Shown: in pieces, positions 16,868 through 44,380 of the stretch
Position numbering within the stretch: the stretch's first letter is position 1
Layout of the letters: the number at the start of each line of letters is the position of its first letter
Origin: Onchidella celtica
Lineage: Eukaryota; Mollusca; Gastropoda; Systellommatophora; Onchidiidae
Length of the DNA: 64,000 nucleotides
Assembly (NCBI GenBank): GCA_963931925.1
Contig: OZ007583.1
Span: 10,211,372-10,275,371, forward strand
Direction of reading: 5' to 3'
The notes under the pieces: generated by a model
Database searches by the model: none
Seen by the model: the letters and a program-made list of their open reading frames with translations, nothing else
What the model was told of the DNA's origin: nothing
Position numbers and translations under genes: made by a program

Positions 16868-16872
16868 GGCCT
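16868..16872. repeat. target-site duplication, left copy (GGCCT)
   Basis: Five bases directly before the outermost TG. The same five follow the outermost CA at 44376-44380. Removing the array and one copy leaves TAGGCCTA at the insertion site. Confidence 0.9.
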
Positions 16873-17484
16873 TGTAACAGCTGAGGTTGTTCTAGCACGT
16901 TATAGTAGGGGGGAGTTAGTTGATCTAACTACAACCCTTTAGAAAACGAAACTATTACAGCTGTAAAATAAATAAACACGAGATCCGACGATAGATTAAA
17001 TAACACTAAAGTTTAATAACTGAATACTGAACAATAAATACTAGGAAGACACCAGCGAAACTAAATATCTACGCCACACAAAAGGAAACTCACTTACTCA
17101 CCCCCCAACCACTCACACAGGATATAAACATTCCTACAGAAAGTTCCCGAAATAAACGTTACCTTTGCCCTCGCACAAACTAACCAATCACGCATCAATA
17201 CGTCATCAGGTTACATCACTCAAGGCCAAATCTGGCGTAAACATTCGTATCCACAACGTTATCGAATATTCGGGAACATACTAATATTTACTGAACGAGT
17301 CAAAACACCTGACAACAAGCGAGCGAGGAAAAAAACTACTCACTAGAAAAGAAGGTCAGGTCACGGAGTACAGTACACTCTGGCGGTTGTCAACAATAAA
17401 ATGGAAAAAGTAGTGGACACATGCTCAGCCACCAGCACAACAACATAACCGGGGGAGGGCAAGGGGTAGCCCGCAGATGCTACA
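16873..17484 (-). repeat. LTR1 (612 bp), outer 3' LTR of the array
   Basis: Begins TGTA and ends TACA, the terminal inverted repeat required for integrase processing. A minus-strand ATTAAA (17012-17017) could be the polyadenylation signal. It is the only LTR with C at 16878 (TGTAACAG); the other four have A. It is also the only one not followed by a primer binding site, since it is the downstream end in element orientation. Confidence 0.92.
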
Positions 17485-17487
17485 CAA

Positions 17488-17493
17488 CTCCCC
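17488..17493 (-). promoter_or_regulatory. probable polypurine tract core
   Basis: Reading the minus strand, GGGGAG lies three bases before the 3' LTR boundary, the position where plus-strand DNA synthesis is primed. It is short for such a tract. The same core occurs at 24210-24215, 30933-30938 and 37656-37661. Confidence 0.5.
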
Positions 17494-17694
17494 AATTTAA
17501 GTTGAACATTCTTCAACTATCTACATCATAAAGCGTCTACACTATCATAAAATACGTATCGTTTCCAATCTTACAAAGGTAGTTGCTAATTCTATTACAA
17601 TTAAAAACAATTTCAGTGTCTTCCCGAATGTCATCACAAATACAATACAATGCAGTGTACTTTGCATCACTAATACCATATCTAATACAATACC

Positions 17695-18426
17695 AGACTA
17701 CATAATTTTGGATGCAAAGTAGGCCTTCGGATTAGCCAGAAGAAGACAGAGATTATGACCCTAAATGTAGACACTCCAGCACCAGTGCAAGTAGATGACA
17801 AGAACCTCACCACGACGGACAAATTTAAATACCTTGGTAGCATTATCAGACCAGAGGGTGGCACAAAGGAGGTCATCCAAAGTAGGCTGGGAAATGCAAG
17901 GGCTGTCTTTCAAAGTATGAGCAACATCTGGAAATCGACACAATACGGCATCAACACCAAGATCAGACTGTACCAAAGCTGTGTCCTATCCACACTCCTG
18001 TATGGATCAGAGTGTTGGCGAATGACAGAAGGTGACCTCGCCAAGTTGTCTTCCTTCCACACCACATGTCTTCGTAGGATTCTCCGCATCTTTTGGCCAA
18101 ACAAGATTTCTAATCAGGAACTACTAAGGCGATGCAAGCCAGAAGAAATAGCCAACATCATCACGAAGAGACGATGGAGATGGCTTGGACACGTGCTGCG
18201 AAAGGAAGCAAATTCTATAACCAAAACAGCACTTCAGTGGACGCCGGAGGGACGGCGCAAGCGAAGCAGACCCAAGGCAACCTGGCGGAGAACAATCGAG
18301 GCAGAGATGAAATCCTTCAATCACTCATGGGGAACTCTCGCAAAGATGGCCCAGGACAGACAGGGCTGGAGATCCTTTGTTGCTGCCCTAAGCACCAGTG
18401 GGTGCAACAGGAAATAGTAGTAGTAG
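17695..18426 (+). mobile_element. LINE tail nested in unit A, antisense to the host element
   Basis: A 732-bp insert between perfect 12-bp duplications TAATACAATACC (17683-17694 and 18427-18438), ending in (TAG)n. The plus-strand frame (start codon 17755, stop 18417) encodes 220 residues from the end of the RT domain onward: GLRISQKKTEIM upstream of the first ATG, KYLGSIIRPEGG, LLYGSECWR, RRWRWLGHVLRK and QDRQGWRSFVAALS. The RT active site and endonuclease are absent (5' truncation). The frame is intact, but a product is doubtful. Unit A has T at 17873 (Val) where the others have A (Asp), and C at 18082 (Leu). Confidence 0.9.
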
Positions 18427-18438
18427 TAATACAATACC

Positions 18439-18984
18439 GTCATTGCTTCCCAATAGTAGGCCTACTGGTCAAAATAACACAACGCCACCACTGTGGTGAA
18501 ACAATGGACAATGATATTATTACAAATCATATAAGGTGAAACGATGGCCCATCGTTTACATAATGCTTCGTGCACGAATCATAGCATATAACTTGTTGTA
18601 CATAACATGGTTATCTCCAAAATGTATAACTCATACGTACAATGGCAAAAATACCAATACATACCGACCACTGATTAGGGTCTTTCTTCATCATATTAGG
18701 TCAAAACAATTTACAACATTGCAATATAACACAAACACTGCTTGCTCGCAGTCCCCATTTGGGTTACATTTTCCAAAAATTACACCAAGTTCCATTGGTA
18801 ACTAATATGACATAGCATAAAATCAAAATGTGACTAACACATCATGACTCTCTATCAGCCATCATTTCAATATTCAGTCACAGATGAACTACGTCCCCAA
18901 TTACAGTACAATACTGCCGTCCTAGAAATTCATCTAGTAGGCAAAAGTATGGGTTACAATGCATTTCACTGATAGTGTACTACT
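18439..18984 (-). other. non-coding 3' region of the retrotransposon
   Basis: Lies between the RT-RH stop and the polypurine tract. Together with 17494-17682 it gives over 700 bp with no long minus-strand frame after the LINE is discounted. I see no envelope-like gene. The same region recurs in units B, C and D. Confidence 0.7.
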
Positions 18985-20628
18985 TTAAAATACCCTGCTC
19001 AGGAAATCGGCACAGACATTTTCTCTGCCTTTTACGTAGTGAATCCTGAATCGGTAAGTCTGTAAAAATAAACTCCATCGTAATAACTTTGGACTGTCAA
19101 ACTTGGCAGAGTTCAAAAACTCTAATGACCGATGGTCAGTTTGGAGCACAAACTCCTTTCCATACAAATACAAAGTAAACTTTTTTACAGCCCAAACAAT
19201 AGCTAAACATTCGCGCTCTGAGACCGAATATTTTGTCTCACGAGGCAATAGCTTACGACTAGCATATGCCACAGGGTACAACTTTCCCTCGTGTTCCTGC
19301 ATAAGACTAGCGCCTAATCCGCGATCTGATGCATCAGTTGCTAAGACAAACTCTTTGGAAAAATCTGGCAAACATAACACGGGTTTGGAGTTAATGACAT
19401 TCTTCAAAGAGGTGTACGCTTTCTCCTGCGTTTCATCCCACTCAACTATATTGGGCTGACCCTTTCTAAGTAAATCAGACAATGGTGATGCAATCGCTGA
19501 AAAGTTAGGAATAAATTCATGGTAATATCCCACTAATCCTAAGAATGCTTTCATTTCCTTCCTAGTGGTGGGTCTGGGTGCGTCTCGTACCTTACATACA
19601 TTCTCTTCTAACAGGCCAATCATACCTTCTCCCACTAAGTGTCCAACAAAGTCTACTTCAGACGTTCCAATCAGACACTTCGATGGTCTTGCAGTTAATC
19701 CAGCTTGGTCCATCCTCTGCAGTAAGTCCTTGAGAGTCTTCACATGCTCGTCGAATGTCTCTGTATGAATCAGCAGGTCGTCCACATATGCTGTCACATT
19801 GTTCATTCCACGGATCAATGGCTTTACGATCCTGTTCAGCGTGGCTCCTGAGTTCATCATCCCAAAAGGCATCCGAATGAATTCATAGTGTTCGCCCATG
19901 GTGACGAACGCCGTCTTGGGAATGTCTTGCTCTCGAACTTTCACTTGCCAGTATCCCTTGCTCAGGTCAATCCGAGAGAATAATTTTCCTCTCGAGAGAC
20001 TCTGAAACACTTCTGATGGCGCTGCTGTCGGATGAGGGTCGAATACTGTGATCTTGTTTAACCCCCTGTAGTCGATGCAGACTCGGTTGGATCCGTCCTT
20101 CTTCTTGACGACAACAATAGGTGAAGCATAAGCTGATGAGCTCCTTCGAATGATGCCCAGCCGTTCCATGGTGCTAAGCTCCTCCTTCAATGAGTCGCGC
20201 ATAGCGTAGGGCACCGGGTATGGTCGTTGACGAACTGGTACCTCTGTCGTCAGGTCGATGCGATGTTCACCCAACTGGCAGCATCCAGGAAGATTAGTGA
20301 AGACGTGCTGGTAATTCTTCACCACATTGCAGAGTTCTTGACGTTGTTCCGATGTCAGTTGCGTTCCATACTGGACATCTCTGTAGCTTTCCTTCTGGTC
20401 CCAGCTTCCTAGGTCGGCAAGGTCCTCCGTCGTTCCACCGTTGTCGCCTTCCAGGTCGCAGTCCTCGATGACTGTCATGCCAGCTGACTCCACGGGTTGA
20501 CTCTTGTCTATCAGGTCGTCCTCTGCCAGTACAGTCTCAGCACTATCACCACCGCCGTCCTTTATGGCGTTGACATGTTCAGGCGTGGTATTTCTCCTAC
20601 TGTTGTCCATCCCACACATCTCGGTCAC
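18985..20628 (-). CDS. unit A RT-RNase H ORF of Gmr1-like Ty3/gypsy element
   Basis: Copies element RNA into DNA and removes the RNA strand. RT: PIVVVKKKDGSNRVCIDYR at about 170-188, first catalytic Asp in SRIDLSKGYW (221), MPFGMMN (253-259) and YVDD (281-284). RNase H of the gypsy type: Asp 432 (ATDAS), Glu 473 (SEREC), Asp 498 (QTDHRS) and Asp 541. Length is 547 codons counted from the codon after the upstream stop and one Ile. The first ATG is at 20619 and the frame is otherwise continuous with gag-PR-IN. Integrase does not follow, which is unusual for gypsy elements. Codon 362 is Phe (G at 19543). Residues GATLNR replace the more usual PATFQR after MPFG. The C-terminal half ends with FLSRVF. 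Confidence 0.93.
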   Translation of the reverse strand: MTEMCGMDNSRRNTTPEHVNAIKDGGGDSAETVLAEDDLIDKSQPVESAGMTVIEDCDLEGDNGGTTEDLADLGSWDQKESYRDVQYGTQLTSEQRQELCNVVKNYQHVFTNLPGCCQLGEHRIDLTTEVPVRQRPYPVPYAMRDSLKEELSTMERLGIIRRSSSAYASPIVVVKKKDGSNRVCIDYRGLNKITVFDPHPTAAPSEVFQSLSRGKLFSRIDLSKGYWQVKVREQDIPKTAFVTMGEHYEFIRMPFGMMNSGATLNRIVKPLIRGMNNVTAYVDDLLIHTETFDEHVKTLKDLLQRMDQAGLTARPSKCLIGTSEVDFVGHLVGEGMIGLLEENVCKVRDAPRPTTRKEMKAFLGLVGYYHEFIPNFSAIASPLSDLLRKGQPNIVEWDETQEKAYTSLKNVINSKPVLCLPDFSKEFVLATDASDRGLGASLMQEHEGKLYPVAYASRKLLPRETKYSVSERECLAIVWAVKKFTLYLYGKEFVLQTDHRSLEFLNSAKFDSPKLLRWSLFLQTYRFRIHYVKGRENVCADFLSRVF

Positions 20629-20631
20629 AAT

Positions 20632-23487
20632 TTATTTTATAGGTCTCGGTTCCATTGCCACTGCTGCTGTTTTTGACGTCCTTGGAATGTATCTCTTGAG
20701 GAGGTTGGCGTGCAAGGTCTTTTCTTTTGCACCCATCTTGATTCTATAGTCGTTAACACCGACAACTGAGACTACCTTATATGGTCCCTTCCATTGGACT
20801 AGGAGCTTGTTAGTGTTCGTCGGCAGTAGCACCAACACTTCATCTCCGGGGCGGAACTTCCTCTCTCGCGCCTTCCGGTCGTAGTAGGTCTTCTGTCTAC
20901 CTTGAGCCTTGGAGAGTTCTTCCGTCGCTAACTTCCATGTGTCCTCCAGCCTCTCACGTAGTTCCATGACGTACTGGTAACTGGTCTTCGTTTCCGGCTC
21001 CTCTACGTCCTTGGTCCATAGTTGTCGTAAGATGTGCATTGGTCCTCTCACAGTTCTCCCATACAGCAACTCGAATGGGGCAAACTTGGTCGACTCTTGG
21101 GGAACTTCACGATATGCGAAGAGCAGCGGGTTGATGTATCTGTGCCACTGCTTGGGTTGCTCTGCGCACAGTCGTCTCAATGTTTTCTTCAGCGTGCCGT
21201 TGAATCGCTCCACCAACCCGTTGCACATAGGGTGGTAGACTGTAGTGGTCGACTGTCGAATTCCCAGTAGTCTATTCGTTTCCTTCATGACATCTGACAT
21301 AAACTGGGTCCCTTGGTCCGACAAGATCTCTTCGGGCACACCCAAACGGCTGTAGATGTTCACTAAGGCTTCTGCTACCGTTTCTGCGTCGATCTTCTTC
21401 AAGGGTGTGGCTTCGGGGTAACGAGTAGCGTAGTCTATGTACACCAGGATATACCGATGTCCACCTTCACTTGGGGGGTCGATAGGTCCTACTAAGTCCA
21501 CGGCCACTCGCCTAAATGGTACGTCCACTACTGGCATACTCTGCAGGTGCACCTTTGGGGTCGCTCCTTTGTTCACCGTCCTCTGGCATATGTCGCATGA
21601 GCGGCAGTATCTCGCGACGTCACCTTCAATTCCAGGCCAATAAAAATTGCTCATAACTCTGTCTTTGGTTTTCTTCACGCCGAGGTGTCCTCCGACGATC
21701 GAGTCGTGGACTACACTCAGTACATACTCTCTCAGTTTCTCGGGTAGTACCACTTGCCTTATAACCGTCGCCTGTCTCAGGTCCTTGTAGATCCGGTACA
21801 GTACTCCTCCATGTTTCTCAAAATGAACAGATTTATTGCCTCTATTAGTTGGGATCTTCTTCTGCTCTAACTTCCTAATGACTTCGTCTTCTTCTTGGAG
21901 TCGGATAAGTTCCTCTCTATCCACTCCCGCGTGCCGTTCTGCCCTCGGCACCTTCAGCGACGTAGACCGGTCCTTCCTCTTCTCCTGGGCTCTCGTGGTC
22001 ACCGCTCCTACCATCACCTCAGTATCAGGGTCGTACGGATCCTTCGCTCCGTCCACGTTCCCGACTACTAGGTCGCAGATGGTCTCCGGGAGACACAGCG
22101 CCGTCACTTTGCCCGTCAGGTAAGGCGTCTTCACGTCGATAACGGCTTCCTCCGCCGCTAGCAAGGAGTTATCGATCCTCGCGATAAGTTTCTTCCCACC
22201 GGTGAGCTGTCCGTCGTCCACCAGTGCTCGCCGCACCACTACACCTTCACAGCCGGTATCTCTTAGGACATCTACCGCTCGATTTCCAATCAAGCCCTTC
22301 ATCACTGGTAACTTCAGCTTCTCCACGGTCCTTCCGTCACTGCATCCTCCGCACGTAACAGGCACCGCTAACTGTAGCTTCCCGTCCTTCATTACCGCTT
22401 GAACGTTGATGCTGGTGTCAGCCGTCGTCGCATCCTGTCTCGACGACTCGTCCGCCGCTATCACTACGGCCGCCGCCGCCTTGTTCGGCTTGCCTCGTCC
22501 CATATCCTTCTGGGCTGGACACATCCTCCGAACGTGGCCTGGCTTTCCACAAAGGTAACATTTCAACTCACCTTTGTCGTTTAACTTGGTACGACACTCC
22601 GTCGCCTTGTGTCCCGGCCTCTGGCACCTATGGCAGACCTGTGGGCTTCTGTCTCCGTTGGGCCTCTGTCGCACTGGCCGGCTCTGCAGTCTGGCGCTCC
22701 CGCTGAGCGTCCGGTTCCTCGCTACCAGGTACGCCTCCGCTGAATCTGCGATGTCCTGTAGCGTCTTTGGTTTCCTCTCCCTCACATGGGTTGCAAGGTC
22801 TGGTGGGCAGGCATCCATGAATTGCTCTCTGACGAACAGATCTCTCACTCCTTCGTAGGTCTCCTCCGTCTTCGACAGCTTTATCCACCTCTCTAGATAG
22901 GTCTTGATCCTGGTCAAAAACATTCCAACATCTTCTCCATCTTCAGGCTTACCTTGTCTGAACATGAGTCTGTATCCGTCCTCTGACAGGTTGTACCTCT
23001 TCTGCAACGCTTCCTGGACCTTGTCGTAGTCCTTGGCTTCATCGATCGGTAGTCTGCAGAAGCACTCCAAAGCTCTCCCGGTCAGCAGGGCAGACAGTGA
23101 TGTCGTCCAGGTGGATCTGGGCCATTCAGCTGTCTCGGCAAACCTCTCAAACCGCAGCAACCAGCTATCCAGATCGTCCTTCTTGTCCTGAAATGCAGGT
23201 AGCTTGGGTCTCTTAGAACTGGCGTGGTCGTCGGTCTTCTGCGCTGAGTCGTTGCCTCCACGTTGCTGGCGCATCCTCTCTATCTCCAACTCGTGGTTCA
23301 TCTTTTCCCTTTCCAGCTGTCGTTCAGCCTCCTTCTCATGAGCCTGTCGTTCAGCCTCCTTCTCCTGTCGTTGAGCCTCCAGCTGTCTTTCTCTTTCCAG
23401 GCCTTCACGGAGGTAGTCCCGTCTCTCCTGCCCAGTGAGCTCCATAGCGTCCGCTTCCTGGCTAAGCCTTCCAATAACCTCCGACAT
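20632..23487 (-). CDS. unit A gag-protease-integrase ORF of Gmr1-like Ty3/gypsy element
   Basis: A 951-residue polyprotein. Residues 20-75 are a charged Glu/Arg-rich coiled coil. 100-260 is the gag core. Two CCHC zinc knuckles lie at 285-298 and 310-323, for RNA binding. Protease has DTG at 410-412. Integrase follows: zinc-binding H594, H601, C631, C634; catalytic D664, D724, E760 with the DD35E spacing; and a GPY/F-type C-terminal module (WKGPY at 899-903). No chromodomain is seen. The start ATG is about 87 bp downstream of the primer binding site with no earlier in-frame candidate. The ORF ends in TAA (20634-20632), after which the same frame runs on into RT-RH. All catalytic residues are present, so the proteins look functional. 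Confidence 0.93.
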   Translation of the reverse strand: MSEVIGRLSQEADAMELTGQERRDYLREGLERERQLEAQRQEKEAERQAHEKEAERQLEREKMNHELEIERMRQQRGGNDSAQKTDDHASSKRPKLPAFQDKKDDLDSWLLRFERFAETAEWPRSTWTTSLSALLTGRALECFCRLPIDEAKDYDKVQEALQKRYNLSEDGYRLMFRQGKPEDGEDVGMFLTRIKTYLERWIKLSKTEETYEGVRDLFVREQFMDACPPDLATHVRERKPKTLQDIADSAEAYLVARNRTLSGSARLQSRPVRQRPNGDRSPQVCHRCQRPGHKATECRTKLNDKGELKCYLCGKPGHVRRMCPAQKDMGRGKPNKAAAAVVIAADESSRQDATTADTSINVQAVMKDGKLQLAVPVTCGGCSDGRTVEKLKLPVMKGLIGNRAVDVLRDTGCEGVVVRRALVDDGQLTGGKKLIARIDNSLLAAEEAVIDVKTPYLTGKVTALCLPETICDLVVGNVDGAKDPYDPDTEVMVGAVTTRAQEKRKDRSTSLKVPRAERHAGVDREELIRLQEEDEVIRKLEQKKIPTNRGNKSVHFEKHGGVLYRIYKDLRQATVIRQVVLPEKLREYVLSVVHDSIVGGHLGVKKTKDRVMSNFYWPGIEGDVARYCRSCDICQRTVNKGATPKVHLQSMPVVDVPFRRVAVDLVGPIDPPSEGGHRYILVYIDYATRYPEATPLKKIDAETVAEALVNIYSRLGVPEEILSDQGTQFMSDVMKETNRLLGIRQSTTTVYHPMCNGLVERFNGTLKKTLRRLCAEQPKQWHRYINPLLFAYREVPQESTKFAPFELLYGRTVRGPMHILRQLWTKDVEEPETKTSYQYVMELRERLEDTWKLATEELSKAQGRQKTYYDRKARERKFRPGDEVLVLLPTNTNKLLVQWKGPYKVVSVVGVNDYRIKMGAKEKTLHANLLKRYIPRTSKTAAVAMEPRPIK

Positions 23488-23574
23488 GTTGTAGATAGCT
23501 TGTCGATGATATTCTACAATAAACTATGTAAATAAATCTAGTAATTTTGATCTGGTCCGCTCGAATATGGTCGG

Positions 23575-23592
23575 ATCCCGGACGAGCCCCCA
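23575..23592 (-). promoter_or_regulatory. primer binding site, tRNA-Pro (unit A)
   Basis: The plus strand reads ATCCCGGACGAGCCCCCA, identical over 18 nt to the 3' end of animal tRNA-Pro including CCA, so the minus-strand RNA would pair perfectly with that tRNA. Three bases separate it from LTR2. Confidence 0.9.
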
Positions 23593-23595
23593 ATA

Positions 23596-24206
23596 TGTAA
23601 AAGCTGAGGTTGTTCTAGCACGTTATAGTAGGGGGGAGTTAGTTGATCTAACTACAACCCTTTAGAAAACGAAACTATTACAGCTGTAAAATAAATAAAC
23701 ACGAGATCCGACGATAGATTAAATAACACTAAAGTTTAATAACTGAATACTGAACAATAAATACTAGGAAGACACCAGCGAAACTAAATATCTACGCCAC
23801 ACAAAAGGAAACTCACTTACTCACCCCCCAACCACTCACACAGGATATAAACATTCCTACAGAAATTCCCGAAATAAACGTTACCTTTGCCCTCGCACAA
23901 ACTAACCAATCACGCATCAATACGTCATCAGGTTACATCACTCAAGGCCAAATCTGGCGTAAACATTCGTATCCACAACGTTATCGAATATTCGGGAACA
24001 TACTAATATTTACTGAACGAGTCAAAACACCTGACAACAAGCGAGCGAGGAAAAAAACTACTCACTAGAAAAGAAGGTCAGGTCACGGAGTACAGTACAC
24101 TCTGGCGGTTGTCAACAATAAAATGGAAAAAGTAGTGGACACATGCTCAGCCACCAGCACAACAACATAACCGGGGGAGGGCAAGGGGTAGCCCGCAGAT
24201 GCTACA
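23596..24206 (-). repeat. LTR2 (611 bp), shared by units A and B
   Basis: Identical to the other LTRs by eye except for one missing G (AGAAATTCCC instead of AGAAAGTTCCC near 23865). It serves as 5' LTR of unit A and 3' LTR of unit B. Confidence 0.92.
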
Positions 24207-24416
24207 CAACTCCCCAATTTAAGTTGAACATTCTTCAACTATCTACATCATAAAGCGTCTACACTATCATAAAATACGTATCGTTTCCAATCTTACAAAG
24301 GTAGTTGCTAATTCTATTACAATTAAAAACAATTTCAGTGTCTTCCCGAATGTCATCACAAATACAATACAATGCAGTGTACTTTGCATCACTAATACCA
24401 TATCTAATACAATACC

Positions 24417-25148
24417 AGACTACATAATTTTGGATGCAAAGTAGGCCTTCGGATTAGCCAGAAGAAGACAGAGATTATGACCCTAAATGTAGACACTCCA
24501 GCACCAGTGCAAGTAGATGACAAGAACCTCACCACGACGGACAAATTTAAATACCTTGGTAGCATTATCAGACCAGAGGGTGGCACAAAGGAGGACATCC
24601 AAAGTAGGCTGGGAAATGCAAGGGCTGTCTTTCAAAGTATGAGCAACATCTGGAAATCGACACAATACGGCATCAACACCAAGATCAGACTGTACCAAAG
24701 CTGTGTCCTATCCACACTCCTGTATGGATCAGAGTGTTGGCGAATGACAGAAGGTGACCTCGCCAAGTTGTCTTCCTTCCACACCACATGTCTTCGTAGG
24801 ATTCTCCGCATCTTTTGGCCAAACAAGATTTCTAATCAGGAACTACTAAGGCGATGCAAGCCAGAAGAAATAGCCAACATCATCACGAAGAGACGATGGA
24901 GATGGCTTGGACACGTGCTGCGAAAGGAAGCAAATTCTATAACCAAAACAGCACTTCAGTGGACGCCGGAGGGACGGCGCAAGCGAAGCAGACCCAAGGC
25001 AACCTGGCGGAGAACAATCGAGGCAGAGATGAAATCCTTCAATCACTCATGGGGAACTCTCGCAAAGATGGCCCAGGACAGACAGGGCTGGAGATCCTTT
25101 GTTGCTGCCCTAAGCACCAGTGGGTGCAACAGGAAATAGTAGTAGTAG
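24417..25148 (+). mobile_element. LINE tail nested in unit B
   Basis: Same insert and same 12-bp duplication (24405-24416 on the left) as in unit A. The 220-codon frame is 24477-25139. It has A at 24595 (Asp) and C at 24804 (Leu). Confidence 0.9.
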
Positions 25149-25706
25149 TAATACAATACCGTCATTGCTTCCCAATAGTAGGCCTACTGGTCAAAATAAC
25201 ACAACGCCACCACTGTGGTGAAACAATGGACAATGATATTATTACAAATCATATAAGGTGAAACGATGGCCCATCGTTTACATAATGCTTCGTGCACGAA
25301 TCATAGCATATAACTTGTTGTACATAACATGGTTATCTCCAAAATGTATAACTCATACGTACAATGGCAAAAATACCAATACATACCGACCACTGATTAG
25401 GGTCTTTCTTCATCATATTAGGTCAAAACAATTTACAACATTGCAATATAACACAAACACTGCTTGCTCGCAGTCCCCATTTGGGTTACATTTTCCAAAA
25501 ATTACACCAAGTTCCATTGGTAACTAATATGACATAGCATAAAATCAAAATGTGACTAACACATCATGACTCTCTATCAGCCATCATTTCAATATTCAGT
25601 CACAGATGAACTACGTCCCCAATTACAGTACAATACTGCCGTCCTAGAAATTCATCTAGTAGGCAAAAGTATGGGTTACAATGCATTTCACTGATAGTGT
25701 ACTACT

Positions 25707-27350: not shown

Positions 27351-27353
27351 AAT

Positions 27354-30314: not shown

Positions 30315-30317
30315 ATA

Positions 30318-31139: not shown

Positions 31140-31871
31140 AGACTACATAATTTTGGATGCAAAGTAGGCCTTCGGATTAGCCAGAAGAAGACAGAGATTA
31201 TGACCCTAAATGTAGACACTCCAGCACCAGTGCAAGTAGATGACAAGAACCTCACCACGACGGACAAATTTAAATACCTTGGTAGCATTATCAGACCAGA
31301 GGGTGGCACAAAGGAGGACATCCAAAGTAGGCTGGGAAATGCAAGGGCTGTCTTTCAAAGTATGAGCAACATCTGGAAATCGACACAATACGGCATCAAC
31401 ACCAAGATCAGACTGTACCAAAGCTGTGTCCTATCCACACTCCTGTATGGATCAGAGTGTTGGCGAATGACAGAAGGTGACCTCGCCAAGTTGTCTTCCT
31501 TCCACACCACATGTCTTCGTAGGATTTTCCGCATCTTTTGGCCAAACAAGATTTCTAATCAGGAACTACTAAGGCGATGCAAGCCAGAAGAAATAGCCAA
31601 CATCATCACGAAGAGACGATGGAGATGGCTTGGACACGTGCTGCGAAAGGAAGCAAATTCTATAACCAAAACAGCACTTCAGTGGACGCCGGAGGGACGG
31701 CGCAAGCGAAGCAGACCCAAGGCAACCTGGCGGAGAACAATCGAGGCAGAGATGAAATCCTTCAATCACTCATGGGGAACTCTCGCAAAGATGGCCCAGG
31801 ACAGACAGGGCTGGAGATCCTTTGTTGCTGCCCTAAGCACCAGTGGGTGCAACAGGAAATAGTAGTAGTAG
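31140..31871 (+). mobile_element. LINE tail nested in unit C
   Basis: Same insert. The 220-codon frame is 31200-31862. It has T at 31527, which changes Leu to Phe (RRIFRIF), shared only with unit D. Confidence 0.9.
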
Positions 31872-32429
31872 TAATACAATACCGTCATTGCTTCCCAATA
31901 GTAGGCCTACTGGTCAAAATAACACAACGCCACCACTGTGGTGAAACAATGGACAATGATATTATTACAAATCATATAAGGTGAAACGATGGCCCATCGT
32001 TTACATAATGCTTCGTGCACGAATCATAGCATATAACTTGTTGTACATAACATGGTTATCTCCAAAATGTATAACTCATACGTACAATGGCAAAAATACC
32101 AATACATACCGACCACTGATTAGGGTCTTTCTTCATCATATTAGGTCAAAACAATTTACAACATTGCAATATAACACAAACACTGCTTGCTCGCAGTCCC
32201 CATTTGGGTTACATTTTCCAAAAATTACACCAAGTTCCATTGGTAACTAATATGACATAGCATAAAATCAAAATGTGACTAACACATCATGACTCTCTAT
32301 CAGCCATCATTTCAATATTCAGTCACAGATGAACTACGTCCCCAATTACAGTACAATACTGCCGTCCTAGAAATTCATCTAGTAGGCAAAAGTATGGGTT
32401 ACAATGCATTTCACTGATAGTGTACTACT

Positions 32430-34073: not shown

Positions 34074-34076
34074 AAT

Positions 34077-36932
34077 TTATTTTATAGGTCTCGGTTCCAT
34101 TGCCACTGCTGCTGTTTTTGACGTCCTTGGAATGTATCTCTTGAGGAGGTTGGCGTGCAAGGTCTTTTCTTTTGCACCCATCTTGATTCTATAGTCGTTA
34201 ACACCGACAACTGAGACTACCTTATATGGTCCCTTCCATTGGACTAGGAGCTTGTTAGTGTTCGTCGGCAGTAGCACCAACACTTCATCTCCGGGGCGGA
34301 ACTTCCTCTCTCGCGCCTTCCGGTCGTAGTAGGTCTTCTGTCTACCTTGAGCCTTGGAGAGTTCTTCCGTCGCTAACTTCCATGTGTCCTCCAGCCTCTC
34401 ACGTAGTTCCATGACGTACTGGTAACTGGTCTTCGTTTCCGGCTCCTCTACGTCCTTGGTCCATAGTTGTCGTAAGATGTGCATTGGTCCTCTCACAGTT
34501 CTCCCATACAGCAACTCGAATGGGGCAAACTTGGTCGACTCTTGGGGAACTTCACGATATGCGAAGAGCAGCGGGTTGATGTATCTGTGCCACTGCTTGG
34601 GTTGCTCTGCGCACAGTCGTCTCAATGTTTTCTTCAGCGTGCCGTTGAATCGCTCCACCAACCCGTTGCACATAGGGTGGTAGACTGTAGTGGTCGACTG
34701 TCGAATTCCCAGTAGTCTATTCGTTTCCTTCATGACATCTGACATAAACTGGGTCCCTTGGTCCGACAAGATCTCTTCGGGCACACCCAAACGGCTGTAG
34801 ATGTTCACTAAGGCTTCTGCTACCGTTTCTGCGTCGATCTTCTTCAAGGGTGTGGCTTCGGGGTAACGAGTAGCGTAGTCTATGTACACCAGGATATACC
34901 GATGTCCACCTTCACTTGGGGGGTCGATAGGTCCTACTAAGTCCACGGCCACTCGCCTAAATGGTACGTCCACTACTGGCATACTCTGCAGGTGCACCTT
35001 TGGGGTCGCTCCTTTGTTCACCGTCCTCTGGCATATGTCGCATGAGCGGCAGTATCTCGCGACGTCACCTTCAATTCCAGGCCAATAAAAATTGCTCATA
35101 ACTCTGTCTTTGGTTTTCTTCACGCCGAGGTGTCCTCCGACGATCGAGTCGTGGACTACACTCAGTACATACTCTCTCAGTTTCTCGGGTAGTACCACTT
35201 GCCTTATAACCGTCGCCTGTCTCAGGTCCTTGTAGATCCGGTACAGTACTCCTCCATGTTTCTCAAAATGAACAGATTTATTGCCTCTATTAGTTGGGAT
35301 CTTCTTCTGCTCTAACTTCCTAATGACTTCGTCTTCTTCTTGGAGTCGGATAAGTTCCTCTCTATCCACTCCCGCGTGCCGTTCTGCCCTCGGCACCTTC
35401 AGCGACGTAGACCGGTCCTTCCTCTTCTCCTGGGCTCTCGTGGTCACCGCTCCTACCATCACCTCAGTATCAGGGTCGTACGGATCCTTCGCTCCGTCCA
35501 CGTTCCCGACTACTAGGTCGCAGATGGTCTCCGGGAGACACAGCGCCGTCACTTTGCCCGTCAGGTAAGGCGTCTTCACGTCGATAACGGCTTCCTCCGC
35601 CGCTAGCAAGGAGTTATCGATCCTCGCGATAAGTTTCTTCCCACCGGTGAGCTGTCCGTCGTCCACCAGTGCTCGCCGCACCACTACACCTTCACAGCCG
35701 GTATCTCTTAGGACATCTACCGCTCGATTTCCAATCAAGCCCTTCATCACTGGTAACTTCAGCTTCTCCACGGTCCTTCCGTCACTGCATCCTCCGCACG
35801 TAACAGGCACCGCTAACTGTAGCTTCCCGTCCTTCATTACCGCTTGAACGTTGATGCTGGTGTCAGCCGTCGTCGCATCCTGTCTCGACGACTCGTCCGC
35901 CGCTATCACTACGGCCGCCGCCGCCTTGTTCGGCTTGCCTCGTCCCATATCCTTCTGGGCTGGACACATCCTCCGAACGTGGCCTGGCTTTCCACAAAGG
36001 TAACATTTCAACTCACCTTTGTCGTTTAACTTGGTACGACACTCCGTCGCCTTGTGTCCCGGCCTCTGGCACCTATGGCAGACCTGTGGGCTTCTGTCTC
36101 CGTTGGGCCTCTGTCGCACTGGCCGGCTCTGCAGTCTGGCGCTCCCGCTGAGCGTCCGGTTCCTCGCTACCAGGTACGCCTCCGCTGAATCTGCGATGTC
36201 CTGTAGCGTCTTTGGTTTCCTCTCCCTCACATGGGTTGCAAGGTCTGGTGGGCAGGCATCCATGAATTGCTCTCTGACGAACAGATCTCTCACTCCTTCG
36301 TAGGTCTCCTCCGTCTTCGACAGCTTTATCCACCTCTCTAGATAGGTCTTGATCCTGGTCAAAAACATTCCAACATCTTCTCCATCTTCAGGCTTACCTT
36401 GTCTGAACATGAGTCTGTATCCGTCCTCTGACAGGTTGTACCTCTTCTGCAACGCTTCCTGGACCTTGTCGTAGTCCTTGGCTTCATCGATCGGTAGTCT
36501 GCAGAAGCACTCCAAAGCTCTCCCGGTCAGCAGGGCAGACAGTGATGTCGTCCAGGTGGATCTGGGCCATTCAGCTGTCTCGGCAAACCTCTCAAACCGC
36601 AGCAACCAGCTATCCAGATCGTCCTTCTTGTCCTGAAATGCAGGTAGCTTGGGTCTCTTAGAACTGGCGTGGTCGTCGGTCTTCTGCGCTGAGTCGTTGC
36701 CTCCACGTTGCTGGCGCATCCTCTCTATCTCCAACTCGTGGTTCATCTTTTCCCTTTCCAGCTGTCGTTCAGCCTCCTTCTCATGAGCCTGTCGTTCAGC
36801 CTCCTTCTCCTGTCGTTGAGCCTCCAGCTGTCTTTCTCTTTCCAGGCCTTCACGGAGGTAGTCCCGTCTCTCCTGCCCAGTGAGCTCCATAGCGTCCGCT
36901 TCCTGGCTAAGCCTTCCAATAACCTCCGACAT
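34077..36932 (-). CDS. unit C gag-protease-integrase ORF
   Basis: The product appears identical to unit A, with the same terminal TAA in frame with RT-RH. Confidence 0.93.
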   Translation of the reverse strand: MSEVIGRLSQEADAMELTGQERRDYLREGLERERQLEAQRQEKEAERQAHEKEAERQLEREKMNHELEIERMRQQRGGNDSAQKTDDHASSKRPKLPAFQDKKDDLDSWLLRFERFAETAEWPRSTWTTSLSALLTGRALECFCRLPIDEAKDYDKVQEALQKRYNLSEDGYRLMFRQGKPEDGEDVGMFLTRIKTYLERWIKLSKTEETYEGVRDLFVREQFMDACPPDLATHVRERKPKTLQDIADSAEAYLVARNRTLSGSARLQSRPVRQRPNGDRSPQVCHRCQRPGHKATECRTKLNDKGELKCYLCGKPGHVRRMCPAQKDMGRGKPNKAAAAVVIAADESSRQDATTADTSINVQAVMKDGKLQLAVPVTCGGCSDGRTVEKLKLPVMKGLIGNRAVDVLRDTGCEGVVVRRALVDDGQLTGGKKLIARIDNSLLAAEEAVIDVKTPYLTGKVTALCLPETICDLVVGNVDGAKDPYDPDTEVMVGAVTTRAQEKRKDRSTSLKVPRAERHAGVDREELIRLQEEDEVIRKLEQKKIPTNRGNKSVHFEKHGGVLYRIYKDLRQATVIRQVVLPEKLREYVLSVVHDSIVGGHLGVKKTKDRVMSNFYWPGIEGDVARYCRSCDICQRTVNKGATPKVHLQSMPVVDVPFRRVAVDLVGPIDPPSEGGHRYILVYIDYATRYPEATPLKKIDAETVAEALVNIYSRLGVPEEILSDQGTQFMSDVMKETNRLLGIRQSTTTVYHPMCNGLVERFNGTLKKTLRRLCAEQPKQWHRYINPLLFAYREVPQESTKFAPFELLYGRTVRGPMHILRQLWTKDVEEPETKTSYQYVMELRERLEDTWKLATEELSKAQGRQKTYYDRKARERKFRPGDEVLVLLPTNTNKLLVQWKGPYKVVSVVGVNDYRIKMGAKEKTLHANLLKRYIPRTSKTAAVAMEPRPIK

Positions 36933-37019
36933 GTTGTAGATAGCTTGTCGATGATATTCTACAATAAACTATGTAAATAAATCTAGTAATTTTGATCTGG
37001 TCCGCTCGAATATGGTCGG

Positions 37020-37037
37020 ATCCCGGACGAGCCCCCA
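37020..37037 (-). promoter_or_regulatory. primer binding site, tRNA-Pro (unit C)
   Basis: Same 18-nt sequence, three bases from LTR4. Confidence 0.9.
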
Positions 37038-37040
37038 ATA

Positions 37041-37652
37041 TGTAAAAGCTGAGGTTGTTCTAGCACGTTATAGTAGGGGGGAGTTAGTTGATCTAACTAC
37101 AACCCTTTAGAAAACGAAACTATTACAGCTGTAAAATAAATAAACACGAGATCCGACGATAGATTAAATAACACTAAAGTTTAATAACTGAATACTGAAC
37201 AATAAATACTAGGAAGACACCAGCGAAACTAAATATCTACGCCACACAAAAGGAAACTCACTTACTCACCCCCCAACCACTCACACAGGATATAAACATT
37301 CCTACAGAAAGTTCCCGAAATAAACGTTACCTTTGCCCTCGCACAAACTAACCAATCACGCATCAATACGTCATCAGGTTACATCACTCAAGGCCAAATC
37401 TGGCGTAAACATTCGTATCCACAACGTTATCGAATATTCGGGAACATACTAATATTTACTGAACGAGTCAAAACACCTGACAACAAGCGAGCGAGGAAAA
37501 AAACTACTCACTAGAAAAGAAGGTCAGGTCACGGAGTACAGTACACTCTGGCGGTTGTCAACAATAAAATGGAAAAAGTAGTGGACACATGCTCAGCCAC
37601 CAGCACAACAACATAACCGGGGGAGGGCAAGGGGTAGCCCGCAGATGCTACA
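37041..37652 (-). repeat. LTR4 (612 bp), shared by units C and D
   Basis: Full-length LTR with the TGTAAAAG tip. By eye it does not differ from LTR3 or LTR5. Confidence 0.92.
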
Positions 37653-37862
37653 CAACTCCCCAATTTAAGTTGAACATTCTTCAACTATCTACATCATAAA
37701 GCGTCTACACTATCATAAAATACGTATCGTTTCCAATCTTACAAAGGTAGTTGCTAATTCTATTACAATTAAAAACAATTTCAGTGTCTTCCCGAATGTC
37801 ATCACAAATACAATACAATGCAGTGTACTTTGCATCACTAATACCATATCTAATACAATACC

Positions 37863-38594
37863 AGACTACATAATTTTGGATGCAAAGTAGGCCTTCGGAT
37901 TAGCCAGAAGAAGACAGAGATTATGACCCTAAATGTAGACACTCCAGCACCAGTGCAAGTAGATGACAAGAACCTCACCACGACGGACAAATTTAAATAC
38001 CTTGGTAGCATTATCAGACCAGAGGGTGGCACAAAGGAGGACATCCAAAGTAGGCTGGGAAATGCAAGGGCTGTCTTTCAAAGTATGAGCAACATCTGGA
38101 AATCGACACAATACGGCATCAACACCAAGATCAGACTGTACCAAAGCTGTGTCCTATCCACACTCCTGTATGGATCAGAGTGTTGGCGAATGACAGAAGG
38201 TGACCTCGCCAAGTTGTCTTCCTTCCACACCACATGTCTTCGTAGGATTTTCCGCATCTTTTGGCCAAACAAGATTTCTAATCAGGAACTACTAAGGCGA
38301 TGCAAGCCAGAAGAAATAGCCAACATCATCACGAAGAGACGATGGAGATGGCTTGGACACGTGCTGCGAAAGGAAGCAAATTCTATAACCAAAACAGCAC
38401 TTCAGTGGACGCCGGAGGGACGGCGCAAGCGAAGCAGACCCAAGGCAACCTGGCGGAGAACAATCGAGGCAGAGATGAAATCCTTCAATCACTCATGGGG
38501 AACTCTCGCAAAGATGGCCCAGGACAGACAGGGCTGGAGATCCTTTGTTGCTGCCCTAAGCACCAGTGGGTGCAACAGGAAATAGTAGTAGTAG
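37863..38594 (+). mobile_element. LINE tail nested in unit D
   Basis: Same insert. The 220-codon frame is 37923-38585. It carries the Phe variant (T at 38250) seen in unit C. Confidence 0.9.
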
Positions 38595-39152
38595 TAATAC
38601 AATACCGTCATTGCTTCCCAATAGTAGGCCTACTGGTCAAAATAACACAACGCCACCACTGTGGTGAAACAATGGACAATGATATTATTACAAATCATAT
38701 AAGGTGAAACGATGGCCCATCGTTTACATAATGCTTCGTGCACGAATCATAGCATATAACTTGTTGTACATAACATGGTTATCTCCAAAATGTATAACTC
38801 ATACGTACAATGGCAAAAATACCAATACATACCGACCACTGATTAGGGTCTTTCTTCATCATATTAGGTCAAAACAATTTACAACATTGCAATATAACAC
38901 AAACACTGCTTGCTCGCAGTCCCCATTTGGGTTACATTTTCCAAAAATTACACCAAGTTCCATTGGTAACTAATATGACATAGCATAAAATCAAAATGTG
39001 ACTAACACATCATGACTCTCTATCAGCCATCATTTCAATATTCAGTCACAGATGAACTACGTCCCCAATTACAGTACAATACTGCCGTCCTAGAAATTCA
39101 TCTAGTAGGCAAAAGTATGGGTTACAATGCATTTCACTGATAGTGTACTACT

Positions 39153-40796
39153 TTAAAATACCCTGCTCAGGAAATCGGCACAGACATTTTCTCTGCCTTT
39201 TACGTAGTGAATCCTGAATCGGTAAGTCTGTAAAAATAAACTCCATCGTAATAACTTTGGACTGTCAAACTTGGCAGAGTTCAAAAACTCTAATGACCGA
39301 TGGTCAGTTTGGAGCACAAACTCCTTTCCATACAAATACAAAGTAAACTTTTTTACAGCCCAAACAATAGCTAAACATTCGCGCTCTGAGACCGAATATT
39401 TTGTCTCACGAGGCAATAGCTTACGACTAGCATATGCCACAGGGTACAACTTTCCCTCGTGTTCCTGCATAAGACTAGCGCCTAATCCGCGATCTGATGC
39501 ATCAGTTGCTAAGACAAACTCTTTGGAAAAATCTGGCAAACATAACACGGGTTTGGAGTTAATGACATTCTTCAAAGAGGTGTACGCTTTCTCCTGCGTT
39601 TCATCCCACTCAACTATATTGGGCTGACCCTTTCTAAGTAAATCAGACAATGGTGATGCAATCGCTGAAAAGTTAGGAATAAATTCATGGTAATATCCCA
39701 CTAATCCTAACAATGCTTTCATTTCCTTCCTAGTGGTGGGTCTGGGTGCGTCTCGTACCTTACATACATTCTCTTCTAACAGGCCAATCATACCTTCTCC
39801 CACTAAGTGTCCAACAAAGTCTACTTCAGACGTTCCAATCAGACACTTCGATGGTCTTGCAGTTAATCCAGCTTGGTCCATCCTCTGCAGTAAGTCCTTG
39901 AGAGTCTTCACATGCTCGTCGAATGTCTCTGTATGAATCAGCAGGTCGTCCACATATGCTGTCACATTGTTCATTCCACGGATCAATGGCTTTACGATCC
40001 TGTTCAGCGTGGCTCCTGAGTTCATCATCCCAAAAGGCATCCGAATGAATTCATAGTGTTCGCCCATGGTGACGAACGCCGTCTTGGGAATGTCTTGCTC
40101 TCGAACTTTCACTTGCCAGTATCCCTTGCTCAGGTCAATCCGAGAGAATAATTTTCCTCTCGAGAGACTCTGAAACACTTCTGATGGCGCTGCTGTCGGA
40201 TGAGGGTCGAATACTGTGATCTTGTTTAACCCCCTGTAGTCGATGCAGACTCGGTTGGATCCGTCCTTCTTCTTGACGACAACAATAGGTGAAGCATAAG
40301 CTGATGAGCTCCTTCGAATGATGCCCAGCCGTTCCATGGTGCTAAGCTCCTCCTTCAATGAGTCGCGCATAGCGTAGGGCACCGGGTATGGTCGTTGACG
40401 AACTGGTACCTCTGTCGTCAGGTCGATGCGATGTTCACCCAACTGGCAGCATCCAGGAAGATTAGTGAAGACGTGCTGGTAATTCTTCACCACATTGCAG
40501 AGTTCTTGACGTTGTTCCGATGTCAGTTGCGTTCCATACTGGACATCTCTGTAGCTTTCCTTCTGGTCCCAGCTTCCTAGGTCGGCAAGGTCCTCCGTCG
40601 TTCCACCGTTGTCGCCTTCCAGGTCGCAGTCCTCGATGACTGTCATGCCAGCTGACTCCACGGGTTGACTCTTGTCTATCAGGTCGTCCTCTGCCAGTAC
40701 AGTCTCAGCACTATCACCACCGCCGTCCTTTATGGCGTTGACATGTTCAGGCGTGGTATTTCTCCTACTGTTGTCCATCCCACACATCTCGGTCAC
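39153..40796 (-). CDS. unit D RT-RNase H ORF
   Basis: As unit A but codon 362 is Leu (C at 39711), as in unit B. All catalytic residues present. Confidence 0.93.
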   Translation of the reverse strand: MTEMCGMDNSRRNTTPEHVNAIKDGGGDSAETVLAEDDLIDKSQPVESAGMTVIEDCDLEGDNGGTTEDLADLGSWDQKESYRDVQYGTQLTSEQRQELCNVVKNYQHVFTNLPGCCQLGEHRIDLTTEVPVRQRPYPVPYAMRDSLKEELSTMERLGIIRRSSSAYASPIVVVKKKDGSNRVCIDYRGLNKITVFDPHPTAAPSEVFQSLSRGKLFSRIDLSKGYWQVKVREQDIPKTAFVTMGEHYEFIRMPFGMMNSGATLNRIVKPLIRGMNNVTAYVDDLLIHTETFDEHVKTLKDLLQRMDQAGLTARPSKCLIGTSEVDFVGHLVGEGMIGLLEENVCKVRDAPRPTTRKEMKALLGLVGYYHEFIPNFSAIASPLSDLLRKGQPNIVEWDETQEKAYTSLKNVINSKPVLCLPDFSKEFVLATDASDRGLGASLMQEHEGKLYPVAYASRKLLPRETKYSVSERECLAIVWAVKKFTLYLYGKEFVLQTDHRSLEFLNSAKFDSPKLLRWSLFLQTYRFRIHYVKGRENVCADFLSRVF

Positions 40797-40799
40797 AAT

Positions 40800-43655
40800 T
40801 TATTTTATAGGTCTCGGTTCCATTGCCACTGCTGCTGTTTTTGACGTCCTTGGAATGTATCTCTTGAGGAGGTTGGCGTGCAAGGTCTTTTCTTTTGCAC
40901 CCATCTTGATTCTATAGTCGTTAACACCGACAACTGAGACTACCTTATATGGTCCCTTCCATTGGACTAGGAGCTTGTTAGTGTTCGTCGGCAGTAGCAC
41001 CAACACTTCATCTCCGGGGCGGAACTTCCTCTCTCGCGCCTTCCGGTCGTAGTAGGTCTTCTGTCTACCTTGAGCCTTGGAGAGTTCTTCCGTCGCTAAC
41101 TTCCATGTGTCCTCCAGCCTCTCACGTAGTTCCATGACGTACTGGTAACTGGTCTTCGTTTCCGGCTCCTCTACGTCCTTGGTCCATAGTTGTCGTAAGA
41201 TGTGCATTGGTCCTCTCACAGTTCTCCCATACAGCAACTCGAATGGGGCAAACTTGGTCGACTCTTGGGGAACTTCACGATATGCGAAGAGCAGCGGGTT
41301 GATGTATCTGTGCCACTGCTTGGGTTGCTCTGCGCACAGTCGTCTCAATGTTTTCTTCAGCGTGCCGTTGAATCGCTCCACCAACCCGTTGCACATAGGG
41401 TGGTAGACTGTAGTGGTCGACTGTCGAATTCCCAGTAGTCTATTCGTTTCCTTCATGACATCTGACATAAACTGGGTCCCTTGGTCCGACAAGATCTCTT
41501 CGGGCACACCCAAACGGCTGTAGATGTTCACTAAGGCTTCTGCTACCGTTTCTGCGTCGATCTTCTTCAAGGGTGTGGCTTCGGGGTAACGAGTAGCGTA
41601 GTCTATGTACACCAGGATATACCGATGTCCACCTTCACTTGGGGGGTCGATAGGTCCTACTAAGTCCACGGCCACTCGCCTAAATGGTACGTCCACTACT
41701 GGCATACTCTGCAGGTGCACCTTTGGGGTCGCTCCTTTGTTCACCGTCCTCTGGCATATGTCGCATGAGCGGCAGTATCTCGCGACGTCACCTTCAATTC
41801 CAGGCCAATAAAAATTGCTCATAACTCTGTCTTTGGTTTTCTTCACGCCGAGGTGTCCTCCGACGATCGAGTCGTGGACTACACTCAGTACATACTCTCT
41901 CAGTTTCTCGGGTAGTACCACTTGCCTTATAACCGTCGCCTGTCTCAGGTCCTTGTAGATCCGGTACAGTACTCCTCCATGTTTCTCAAAATGAACAGAT
42001 TTATTGCCTCTATTAGTTGGGATCTTCTTCTGCTCTAACTTCCTAATGACTTCGTCTTCTTCTTGGAGTCGGATAAGTTCCTCTCTATCCACTCCCGCGT
42101 GCCGTTCTGCCCTCGGCACCTTCAGCGACGTAGACCGGTCCTTCCTCTTCTCCTGGGCTCTCGTGGTCACCGCTCCTACCATCACCTCAGTATCAGGGTC
42201 GTACGGATCCTTCGCTCCGTCCACGTTCCCGACTACTAGGTCGCAGATGGTCTCCGGGAGACACAGCGCCGTCACTTTGCCCGTCAGGTAAGGCGTCTTC
42301 ACGTCGATAACGGCTTCCTCCGCCGCTAGCAAGGAGTTATCGATCCTCGCGATAAGTTTCTTCCCACCGGTGAGCTGTCCGTCGTCCACCAGTGCTCGCC
42401 GCACCACTACACCTTCACAGCCGGTATCTCTTAGGACATCTACCGCTCGATTTCCAATCAAGCCCTTCATCACTGGTAACTTCAGCTTCTCCACGGTCCT
42501 TCCGTCACTGCATCCTCCGCACGTAACAGGCACCGCTAACTGTAGCTTCCCGTCCTTCATTACCGCTTGAACGTTGATGCTGGTGTCAGCCGTCGTCGCA
42601 TCCTGTCTCGACGACTCGTCCGCCGCTATCACTACGGCCGCCGCCGCCTTGTTCGGCTTGCCTCGTCCCATATCCTTCTGGGCTGGACACATCCTCCGAA
42701 CGTGGCCTGGCTTTCCACAAAGGTAACATTTCAACTCACCTTTGTCGTTTAACTTGGTACGACACTCCGTCGCCTTGTGTCCCGGCCTCTGGCACCTATG
42801 GCAGACCTGTGGGCTTCTGTCTCCGTTGGGCCTCTGTCGCACTGGCCGGCTCTGCAGTCTGGCGCTCCCGCTGAGCGTCCGGTTCCTCGCTACCAGGTAC
42901 GCCTCCGCTGAATCTGCGATGTCCTGTAGCGTCTTTGGTTTCCTCTCCCTCACATGGGTTGCAAGGTCTGGTGGGCAGGCATCCATGAATTGCTCTCTGA
43001 CGAACAGATCTCTCACTCCTTCGTAGGTCTCCTCCGTCTTCGACAGCTTTATCCACCTCTCTAGATAGGTCTTGATCCTGGTCAAAAACATTCCAACATC
43101 TTCTCCATCTTCAGGCTTACCTTGTCTGAACATGAGTCTGTATCCGTCCTCTGACAGGTTGTACCTCTTCTGCAACGCTTCCTGGACCTTGTCGTAGTCC
43201 TTGGCTTCATCGATCGGTAGTCTGCAGAAGCACTCCAAAGCTCTCCCGGTCAGCAGGGCAGACAGTGATGTCGTCCAGGTGGATCTGGGCCATTCAGCTG
43301 TCTCGGCAAACCTCTCAAACCGCAGCAACCAGCTATCCAGATCGTCCTTCTTGTCCTGAAATGCAGGTAGCTTGGGTCTCTTAGAACTGGCGTGGTCGTC
43401 GGTCTTCTGCGCTGAGTCGTTGCCTCCACGTTGCTGGCGCATCCTCTCTATCTCCAACTCGTGGTTCATCTTTTCCCTTTCCAGCTGTCGTTCAGCCTCC
43501 TTCTCATGAGCCTGTCGTTCAGCCTCCTTCTCCTGTCGTTGAGCCTCCAGCTGTCTTTCTCTTTCCAGGCCTTCACGGAGGTAGTCCCGTCTCTCCTGCC
43601 CAGTGAGCTCCATAGCGTCCGCTTCCTGGCTAAGCCTTCCAATAACCTCCGACAT
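40800..43655 (-). CDS. unit D gag-protease-integrase ORF
   Basis: The product appears identical to unit A. This is the first unit in transcription order from LTR5, so it is the one most directly driven by the outer 5' LTR. Confidence 0.93.
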   Translation of the reverse strand: MSEVIGRLSQEADAMELTGQERRDYLREGLERERQLEAQRQEKEAERQAHEKEAERQLEREKMNHELEIERMRQQRGGNDSAQKTDDHASSKRPKLPAFQDKKDDLDSWLLRFERFAETAEWPRSTWTTSLSALLTGRALECFCRLPIDEAKDYDKVQEALQKRYNLSEDGYRLMFRQGKPEDGEDVGMFLTRIKTYLERWIKLSKTEETYEGVRDLFVREQFMDACPPDLATHVRERKPKTLQDIADSAEAYLVARNRTLSGSARLQSRPVRQRPNGDRSPQVCHRCQRPGHKATECRTKLNDKGELKCYLCGKPGHVRRMCPAQKDMGRGKPNKAAAAVVIAADESSRQDATTADTSINVQAVMKDGKLQLAVPVTCGGCSDGRTVEKLKLPVMKGLIGNRAVDVLRDTGCEGVVVRRALVDDGQLTGGKKLIARIDNSLLAAEEAVIDVKTPYLTGKVTALCLPETICDLVVGNVDGAKDPYDPDTEVMVGAVTTRAQEKRKDRSTSLKVPRAERHAGVDREELIRLQEEDEVIRKLEQKKIPTNRGNKSVHFEKHGGVLYRIYKDLRQATVIRQVVLPEKLREYVLSVVHDSIVGGHLGVKKTKDRVMSNFYWPGIEGDVARYCRSCDICQRTVNKGATPKVHLQSMPVVDVPFRRVAVDLVGPIDPPSEGGHRYILVYIDYATRYPEATPLKKIDAETVAEALVNIYSRLGVPEEILSDQGTQFMSDVMKETNRLLGIRQSTTTVYHPMCNGLVERFNGTLKKTLRRLCAEQPKQWHRYINPLLFAYREVPQESTKFAPFELLYGRTVRGPMHILRQLWTKDVEEPETKTSYQYVMELRERLEDTWKLATEELSKAQGRQKTYYDRKARERKFRPGDEVLVLLPTNTNKLLVQWKGPYKVVSVVGVNDYRIKMGAKEKTLHANLLKRYIPRTSKTAAVAMEPRPIK

Positions 43656-43742
43656 GTTGTAGATAGCTTGTCGATGATATTCTACAATAAACTATGTAAA
43701 TAAATCTAGTAATTTTGATCTGGTCCGCTCGAATATGGTCGG

Positions 43743-43760
43743 ATCCCGGACGAGCCCCCA
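43743..43760 (-). promoter_or_regulatory. primer binding site, tRNA-Pro (unit D)
   Basis: Same 18-nt sequence, three bases from LTR5. Confidence 0.9.
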
Positions 43761-43763
43761 ATA

Positions 43764-44375
43764 TGTAAAAGCTGAGGTTGTTCTAGCACGTTATAGTAGG
43801 GGGGAGTTAGTTGATCTAACTACAACCCTTTAGAAAACGAAACTATTACAGCTGTAAAATAAATAAACACGAGATCCGACGATAGATTAAATAACACTAA
43901 AGTTTAATAACTGAATACTGAACAATAAATACTAGGAAGACACCAGCGAAACTAAATATCTACGCCACACAAAAGGAAACTCACTTACTCACCCCCCAAC
44001 CACTCACACAGGATATAAACATTCCTACAGAAAGTTCCCGAAATAAACGTTACCTTTGCCCTCGCACAAACTAACCAATCACGCATCAATACGTCATCAG
44101 GTTACATCACTCAAGGCCAAATCTGGCGTAAACATTCGTATCCACAACGTTATCGAATATTCGGGAACATACTAATATTTACTGAACGAGTCAAAACACC
44201 TGACAACAAGCGAGCGAGGAAAAAAACTACTCACTAGAAAAGAAGGTCAGGTCACGGAGTACAGTACACTCTGGCGGTTGTCAACAATAAAATGGAAAAA
44301 GTAGTGGACACATGCTCAGCCACCAGCACAACAACATAACCGGGGGAGGGCAAGGGGTAGCCCGCAGATGCTACA
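43764..44375 (-). repeat. LTR5 (612 bp), outer 5' LTR of the array
   Basis: Outermost LTR in element orientation, directly abutting the right GGCCT. It would supply the promoter for unit D. Its outer tip reads TGTAGCATCTG on the minus strand. Confidence 0.92.
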
Positions 44376-44380
44376 GGCCT
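44376..44380. repeat. target-site duplication, right copy (GGCCT)
   Basis: Right partner of 16868-16872. It directly follows the CA of LTR5. Confidence 0.9.

Follow-up and report, generated by a model that had tools for sequence, protein, structure and literature searches.

A trapped LINE suggests in-place copying of a tandem LTR retrotransposon after its insertion in Onchidella celtica

Tandem LTR elements are turning up in long-read genomes, and the available part of PMC11899658 leaves open whether such tandems form before or after integration. The same question is raised by a tandem in Onchidella celtica, where a LINE insertion and a directional LTR variant make it testable at one site. 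The window is the whole stretch of DNA that was analysed (64,000 nucleotides), and coordinates refer to it unless stated otherwise. Sequence comparison within the window revealed five LTRs alternating with four internal regions at 16873-44375, with LTRs at both ends and the element oriented on the minus strand.

16868..16872, no strand: outer target-site duplication GGCCT, left copy
16873..17484, minus strand: LTR1, the outer 3' LTR in element orientation, with the family state kept at the sixth base (16878)
17485..23595, minus strand: internal region 1
23596..24206, minus strand: LTR2, shared, with a private 1-bp deletion at 23866
24207..30317, minus strand: internal region 2
30318..30929, minus strand: LTR3, shared
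30930..37040, minus strand: internal region 3
37041..37652, minus strand: LTR4, shared
37653..43763, minus strand: internal region 4
43764..44375, minus strand: LTR5, the outer 5' LTR
44376..44380, no strand: outer target-site duplication GGCCT, right copy

The LTRs are 612 bp long, except for LTR2 (611 bp), and all four internal regions measure 6111 bp. The GGCCT duplication is present at both outer borders of the array only; the inner LTR borders carry no duplication and adjoin CAACTCCC on the putative PPT side and CCCCAATA on the PBS side. These results bear out the sequence-only reading, which had described five LTRs and four internal regions over 27.5 kb with GGCCT at the outer edges alone, and the single outer duplication supports its view of the tetramer as one integration in one target-site duplication. 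An origin by nested or adjacent independent insertions has a negligible probability: no support for it was found, the inner target-site duplications are absent, and an identical LINE junction occurs in every unit. The nested-insertion reading, being contradicted by the inner junctions, was rejected.

The units share 99.94-99.985% identity, with one to four substitutions and at most one gap in pairwise comparisons over 6722-6723 bp, and four near-exact 6.7-kb repeats are far beyond chance expectation. The window is free of N. Moreover, the internal regions are mutually distinct, differing at sites 17873, 18082 and 19543 (unit-1 coordinates), indicating that the array is not a single unit pasted four times. 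The array structure is confirmed as real, with its count subject to long-read confirmation; the number four is given as assembled, the assembly being its sole basis.

The coding content of the element was assigned from the following features, in which the Pfam domain matches are those of the unit-4 frames and the frames of units 1-3 were matched to them by length.

43743..43760, minus strand: putative primer-binding site of unit 4, after the 5' LTR, from the sequence
40800..43691, minus strand: 963-aa open frame of unit 4, with SCAN-like Gag, zinc knuckle and integrase (H2C2, rve), from Pfam
20632-23523, 27354-30245 and 34077-36968, minus strand: frames of 963-aa length in units 1-3, from the open reading frame list
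39153..40799, minus strand: 548-aa open frame of unit 4, with reverse transcriptase (RT) and RNase H, downstream of the integrase, from Pfam
18985-20631, 25707-27353 and 32430-34076, minus strand: frames of 548-aa length in units 1-3, from the open reading frame list

The putative primer-binding site is presumably of a type resembling tRNA-Pro. Pfam matches to RVT_1, RT_RNaseH and RT_RNaseH_2 in the unit-4 548-aa frame identified a Ty3/gypsy-type RT and RNase H, and we take these profiles to fit a gypsy-type RT. In addition, the integrase lies upstream of RT-RNase H, which is the Gmr1 order, and the array element is, as its predicted domains indicate, of the Ty3/gypsy type and Gmr1-like by domain order. 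A single in-frame stop separates the integrase-bearing from the RT-bearing frame in all four units (40800-40802 in unit 4). At this same frame boundary, position counts showed a short length difference between the dispersed copies and the array. The Gag region of the 40800-43691 frame (minus strand) matches the Pfam SCAN domain. The intact env that would mark an endogenous retrovirus was not seen among frames of at least 200 aa between pol and the 3' LTR, since the sole frame of this size in that interval is a plus-strand LINE piece. This 243-aa plus-strand frame was considered as an env or accessory gene and rejected, as it is a LINE tail. A search of the window against Rfam gave no match at gathering scores.

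The integrase-before-RT order is shared with Gmr1 elements, in which the integrase is described as lying upstream of the reverse transcriptase (PMC8220671, available part); compared with that description, the present array is distinguished by the in-frame stop that divides the integrase frame from the RT frame and by the LINE piece close to the 3' LTR.

The same 732-bp, 5'-truncated LINE piece is present in all four units, on the plus strand, between the RT-RNase H frame and the 3' LTR. It carries a DUF6451 frame (Pfam), a (GTA)n 3' end and a 12-bp target duplication.

17695..18426, plus strand: LINE-tail insert of unit 1, ends by offset
24417..25148, plus strand: LINE-tail insert of unit 2, ends by offset
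31140..31871, plus strand: LINE-tail insert of unit 3, ends by offset
37863..38594, plus strand: LINE-tail insert of unit 4, with the 12-bp target-site duplication at 37851-37862 and 38595-38606

The target-site duplication, the 5' truncation, the simple 3' tail and the longer relatives elsewhere identified a 5'-truncated LINE insertion. Neither the insert nor the minus-strand orientation had been mentioned in the sequence-only reading. Thirty LINE loci were fetched, comprising the four array units and 26 copies elsewhere, whose alignments span 728-743 bp with 99.1-99.6% identity; the LINE family is, by the look of these copies, young and numerous. The 30 bp upstream of the insert start are common to 24 of the 26 other copies, and the remaining two share less. 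The fetched flanks of 25 of these 26 copies lack other element sequence when compared with window 36400-40000, and one copy (L036) has a diverged relative of the element (81-85%) beside its LINE.

The two junctions between element and LINE were then used as queries against the 1.14-Gb genome, and the best 40 matches were scored out of 2109 and 1124 loose first-look candidates. Full matches to the left-junction query (106 bp) were restricted to four of the 40 listed, all of them array units, and the other 36 matched the element side only; the right-junction query (121 bp) gave the same result (4 of 40, with 36 on the element side only). Furthermore, L012-L018, seven copies of the LTR element elsewhere in the genome, all have an uninterrupted LINE target. 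A full-length junction relative should outrank partial ones, although this is no guarantee. On these best-40 lists, a LINE-bearing element copy outside the array is unlikely; one may also have disappeared since, or have escaped assembly. As far as the lists show, the LINE-bearing element appears confined to the array locus. LINE positions 38308 and 38411 (unit 4) differ from all 26 LINE relatives, and their absence from the list of unit differences indicates that their states are identical across the units. These changes may postdate the LINE insertion and predate amplification, or may come from the LINE's own source.

The junctions bear directly on the idea that a ready-made concatemer, arising from read-through RNA, template switching or a one-LTR circle, was integrated in one event. 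Routes of this kind have been proposed in the available parts of PMC11899658 and PMC7215508, and they likewise predict a single outer target-site duplication and shared LTRs. However, a concatemer requires a LINE-bearing source element, which was found among none of the 40 listed matches for either junction, and array-private changes in subsets of units would still require later exchange between units. We consider this origin highly unlikely.

All seven dispersed two-LTR copies examined (L012-L018) have their own 5-bp target-site duplication. No dispersed internal site, out of the 36 and 36 listed, lies within 12 kb of another entry in either list. Outside the window, the 35 listed LTR matches fall into 17 single, seven double and one quadruple cluster, the last being on C5. 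The sequence-only reading had suggested a search for other multi-unit arrays of the family; no second LTR-sharing array was found among the matches listed, for which the best 40 per query were scored, and the one tandem recovered, on C5, has a different make-up. The array thus looks exceptional within its family, as a statement about this sample rather than a genome count. The C5 array (~12.799-12.836 Mb) was considered as a second LTR-sharing tandem and rejected on its unit make-up, each unit consisting of one LTR, an internal region lacking its last bases by the 5' LTR, and ~1.48 kb of other sequence. Adjacent C5 units are ~98% identical, more diverged than those of the 16873-44375 array, and C5 units 15 kb apart are 99.0-99.7% identical. 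In the fetched interval C5:12796000-12835999 (G000; L009, L010, L011 and L019), the first four LTRs are alternately 620 and 591 bp long, and there is a higher-order period of 15 kb.

Five positions vary within the array. At LTR base 6, LTR2-5 have A and LTR1 has C, the family state, which is also found in all 21 distinct other LTRs. The T at the 17873-type site occurs in unit 1 only and the T at the 18082-type site in units 3 and 4; at these two sites, the 26 LINE copies elsewhere all carry A and C, respectively. The C at the 19543-type site occurs in units 2 and 4; of the 13 distinct element copies elsewhere, G is present in 12 and A in a single distant one, and C is absent from all of them. 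The fifth is the 1-bp deletion private to LTR2. Array members and twice-fetched loci were removed from these comparison sets, to which the C5 tandem contributes five of the 13 element copies and six of the 21 LTRs. Three derived changes, present in no relative examined, are common to subsets of units or LTRs, indicating that the units were copied or traded sequence after these changes arose at the array locus. In addition, all three inner LTRs have the left edge of the 5' LTR, which is the polarity expected from unequal LTR-LTR exchange.

Sites 18082 and 19543 are in conflict, with all four combinations present. Stepwise LTR-only duplication is therefore insufficient, and internal exchange, conversion or repeated mutation is required. 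In a small exchange search that let each of the three markers mutate once, capped intermediates at three units and excluded gene conversion, the observed pattern was out of reach with one or two exchanges and attainable with three; the search tests consistency and does not yield a likelihood. Since the variable positions number just five, the history is thinly supported.

The same variants were weighed against a fault of assembly, in which fewer true units would exist per haplotype, as when two allelic dimers are joined end to end. Two joined dimers would be expected to show the observed patterns CC/TT and GC/GC, and 6.7-kb units at 99.94-99.985% identity are hard for reads little longer than two units. 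Against this stand the four distinct internal regions, the lack of any run of N, and a 1000-bp right-flank query that matched in full at the window only (one of 45 listed matches), so that no second haplotype copy was seen among them. We regard such inflation as rather unlikely. It is also compatible with in-place exchange, since the dimers themselves would still have had that origin: if the base calls are right, four distinct LINE-bearing units in a diploid mean that at least one haplotype has at least two units.

Another route, described for yeast elements, would be homologous recombination, independent of integrase, by which cDNA or circular DNA made by the element returns to its locus; it is cited for yeast in the available part of PMC11899658. 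It would yield an identical structure, and the element has long open frames with the LINE insert outside them. However, no LINE-bearing daughter was found elsewhere among the matches listed, although one would be expected if cDNA were made in quantity, the integrase and RT frames are split by an in-frame stop in every unit, and the difference between LTR1 and LTR2-5 fits simple LTR exchange. This route is accordingly judged very improbable; if true, it would be a non-yeast counterpart, with a retroelement growing in place instead of spreading.

The reading that we favour, with a probability of roughly 0.8, is one insertion that received a LINE copy and was subsequently multiplied in place from one unit to four by unequal homologous exchange. 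A single Gmr1-like Ty3/gypsy element would have integrated once in minus-strand orientation, generating the 5-bp GGCCT duplication. Its 5' LTR would then have mutated six bases in from its edge; before or after this change, a 5'-truncated LINE copy would have inserted into the stretch that runs from the RT-RNase H frame to the 3' LTR. Subsequently, misaligned LTRs of sister or homologous chromosomes may have exchanged unequally, raising the count from one to four within the same target duplication, with at least one exchange probably lying within an internal region. We infer both this order of events and the recombination pathway, whether crossover, break-induced copying or gene conversion. 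In-place exchange is favoured because the outer target-site duplication is single, the LINE junctions are full only at the array among the matches listed, and private variants are shared; the reading rests on one assembly. Taken together, the trapped LINE suggests copying in place after insertion. Between the two causes proposed from the sequence alone, unequal LTR-LTR exchange is upheld by the LINE insert, found only here among the matches listed, and by the private variants, and concatemer integration is disfavoured.

The comparisons with known systems rest on the available parts of the sources. In plants, LTR-sharing tandems with one target-site duplication are reported as common, with the mechanism left open (PMC11899658, 2025). 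These rice and other plant structures resemble the present array in their alternating LTRs and internal regions, shared inner LTRs and single outer duplication, and they are mostly gypsy-type with highly identical units. The two rice loci detailed there have two units each, whereas the present array has four, and the present element differs from the plant elements in having its integrase before RT. The authors were unable to separate recombination from complex insertion; here the internal LINE favours recombination. Longer arrays are known from miniature elements: biv-TRIM arrays in bivalves reach TDR58_I57 in a clam (PMC6934838), and Cassandra arrays in plants have at least 12 repeated LTRs (PMC7215508). 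Both follow the same LTR(n)/internal(n-1) pattern, biv-TRIM doing so in animals, but both are short and non-autonomous, unlike the present 6.7-kb unit with its long coding frames. The rarity claimed for such an array in the sequence-only reading was therefore overstated. The array is of a kind already known, and the new value lies in the internal LINE marker rather than in the array itself; the use of a trapped LINE to order tandem events was not found in the open-licence papers listed, as covered by titles and the beginnings of abstracts. The element/LINE junction is also usable as a copy-number assay.

Several repeats flank the array. Directly to its right, window 44433-45139 is an old repeat with 44 other listed matches at 69-82% identity, one of which sits further right in the query than this interval. 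Within it, frame 44595-44957 gave no Pfam match; we take it to resemble a piece of a mariner transposase. In the left flank, another DUF6451-bearing frame (9056-9670, minus strand) is the LINE tail of a different copy, and a 74-bp tandem repeat in three near-identical copies occupies 15726-15948, ~0.9 kb left of the array.
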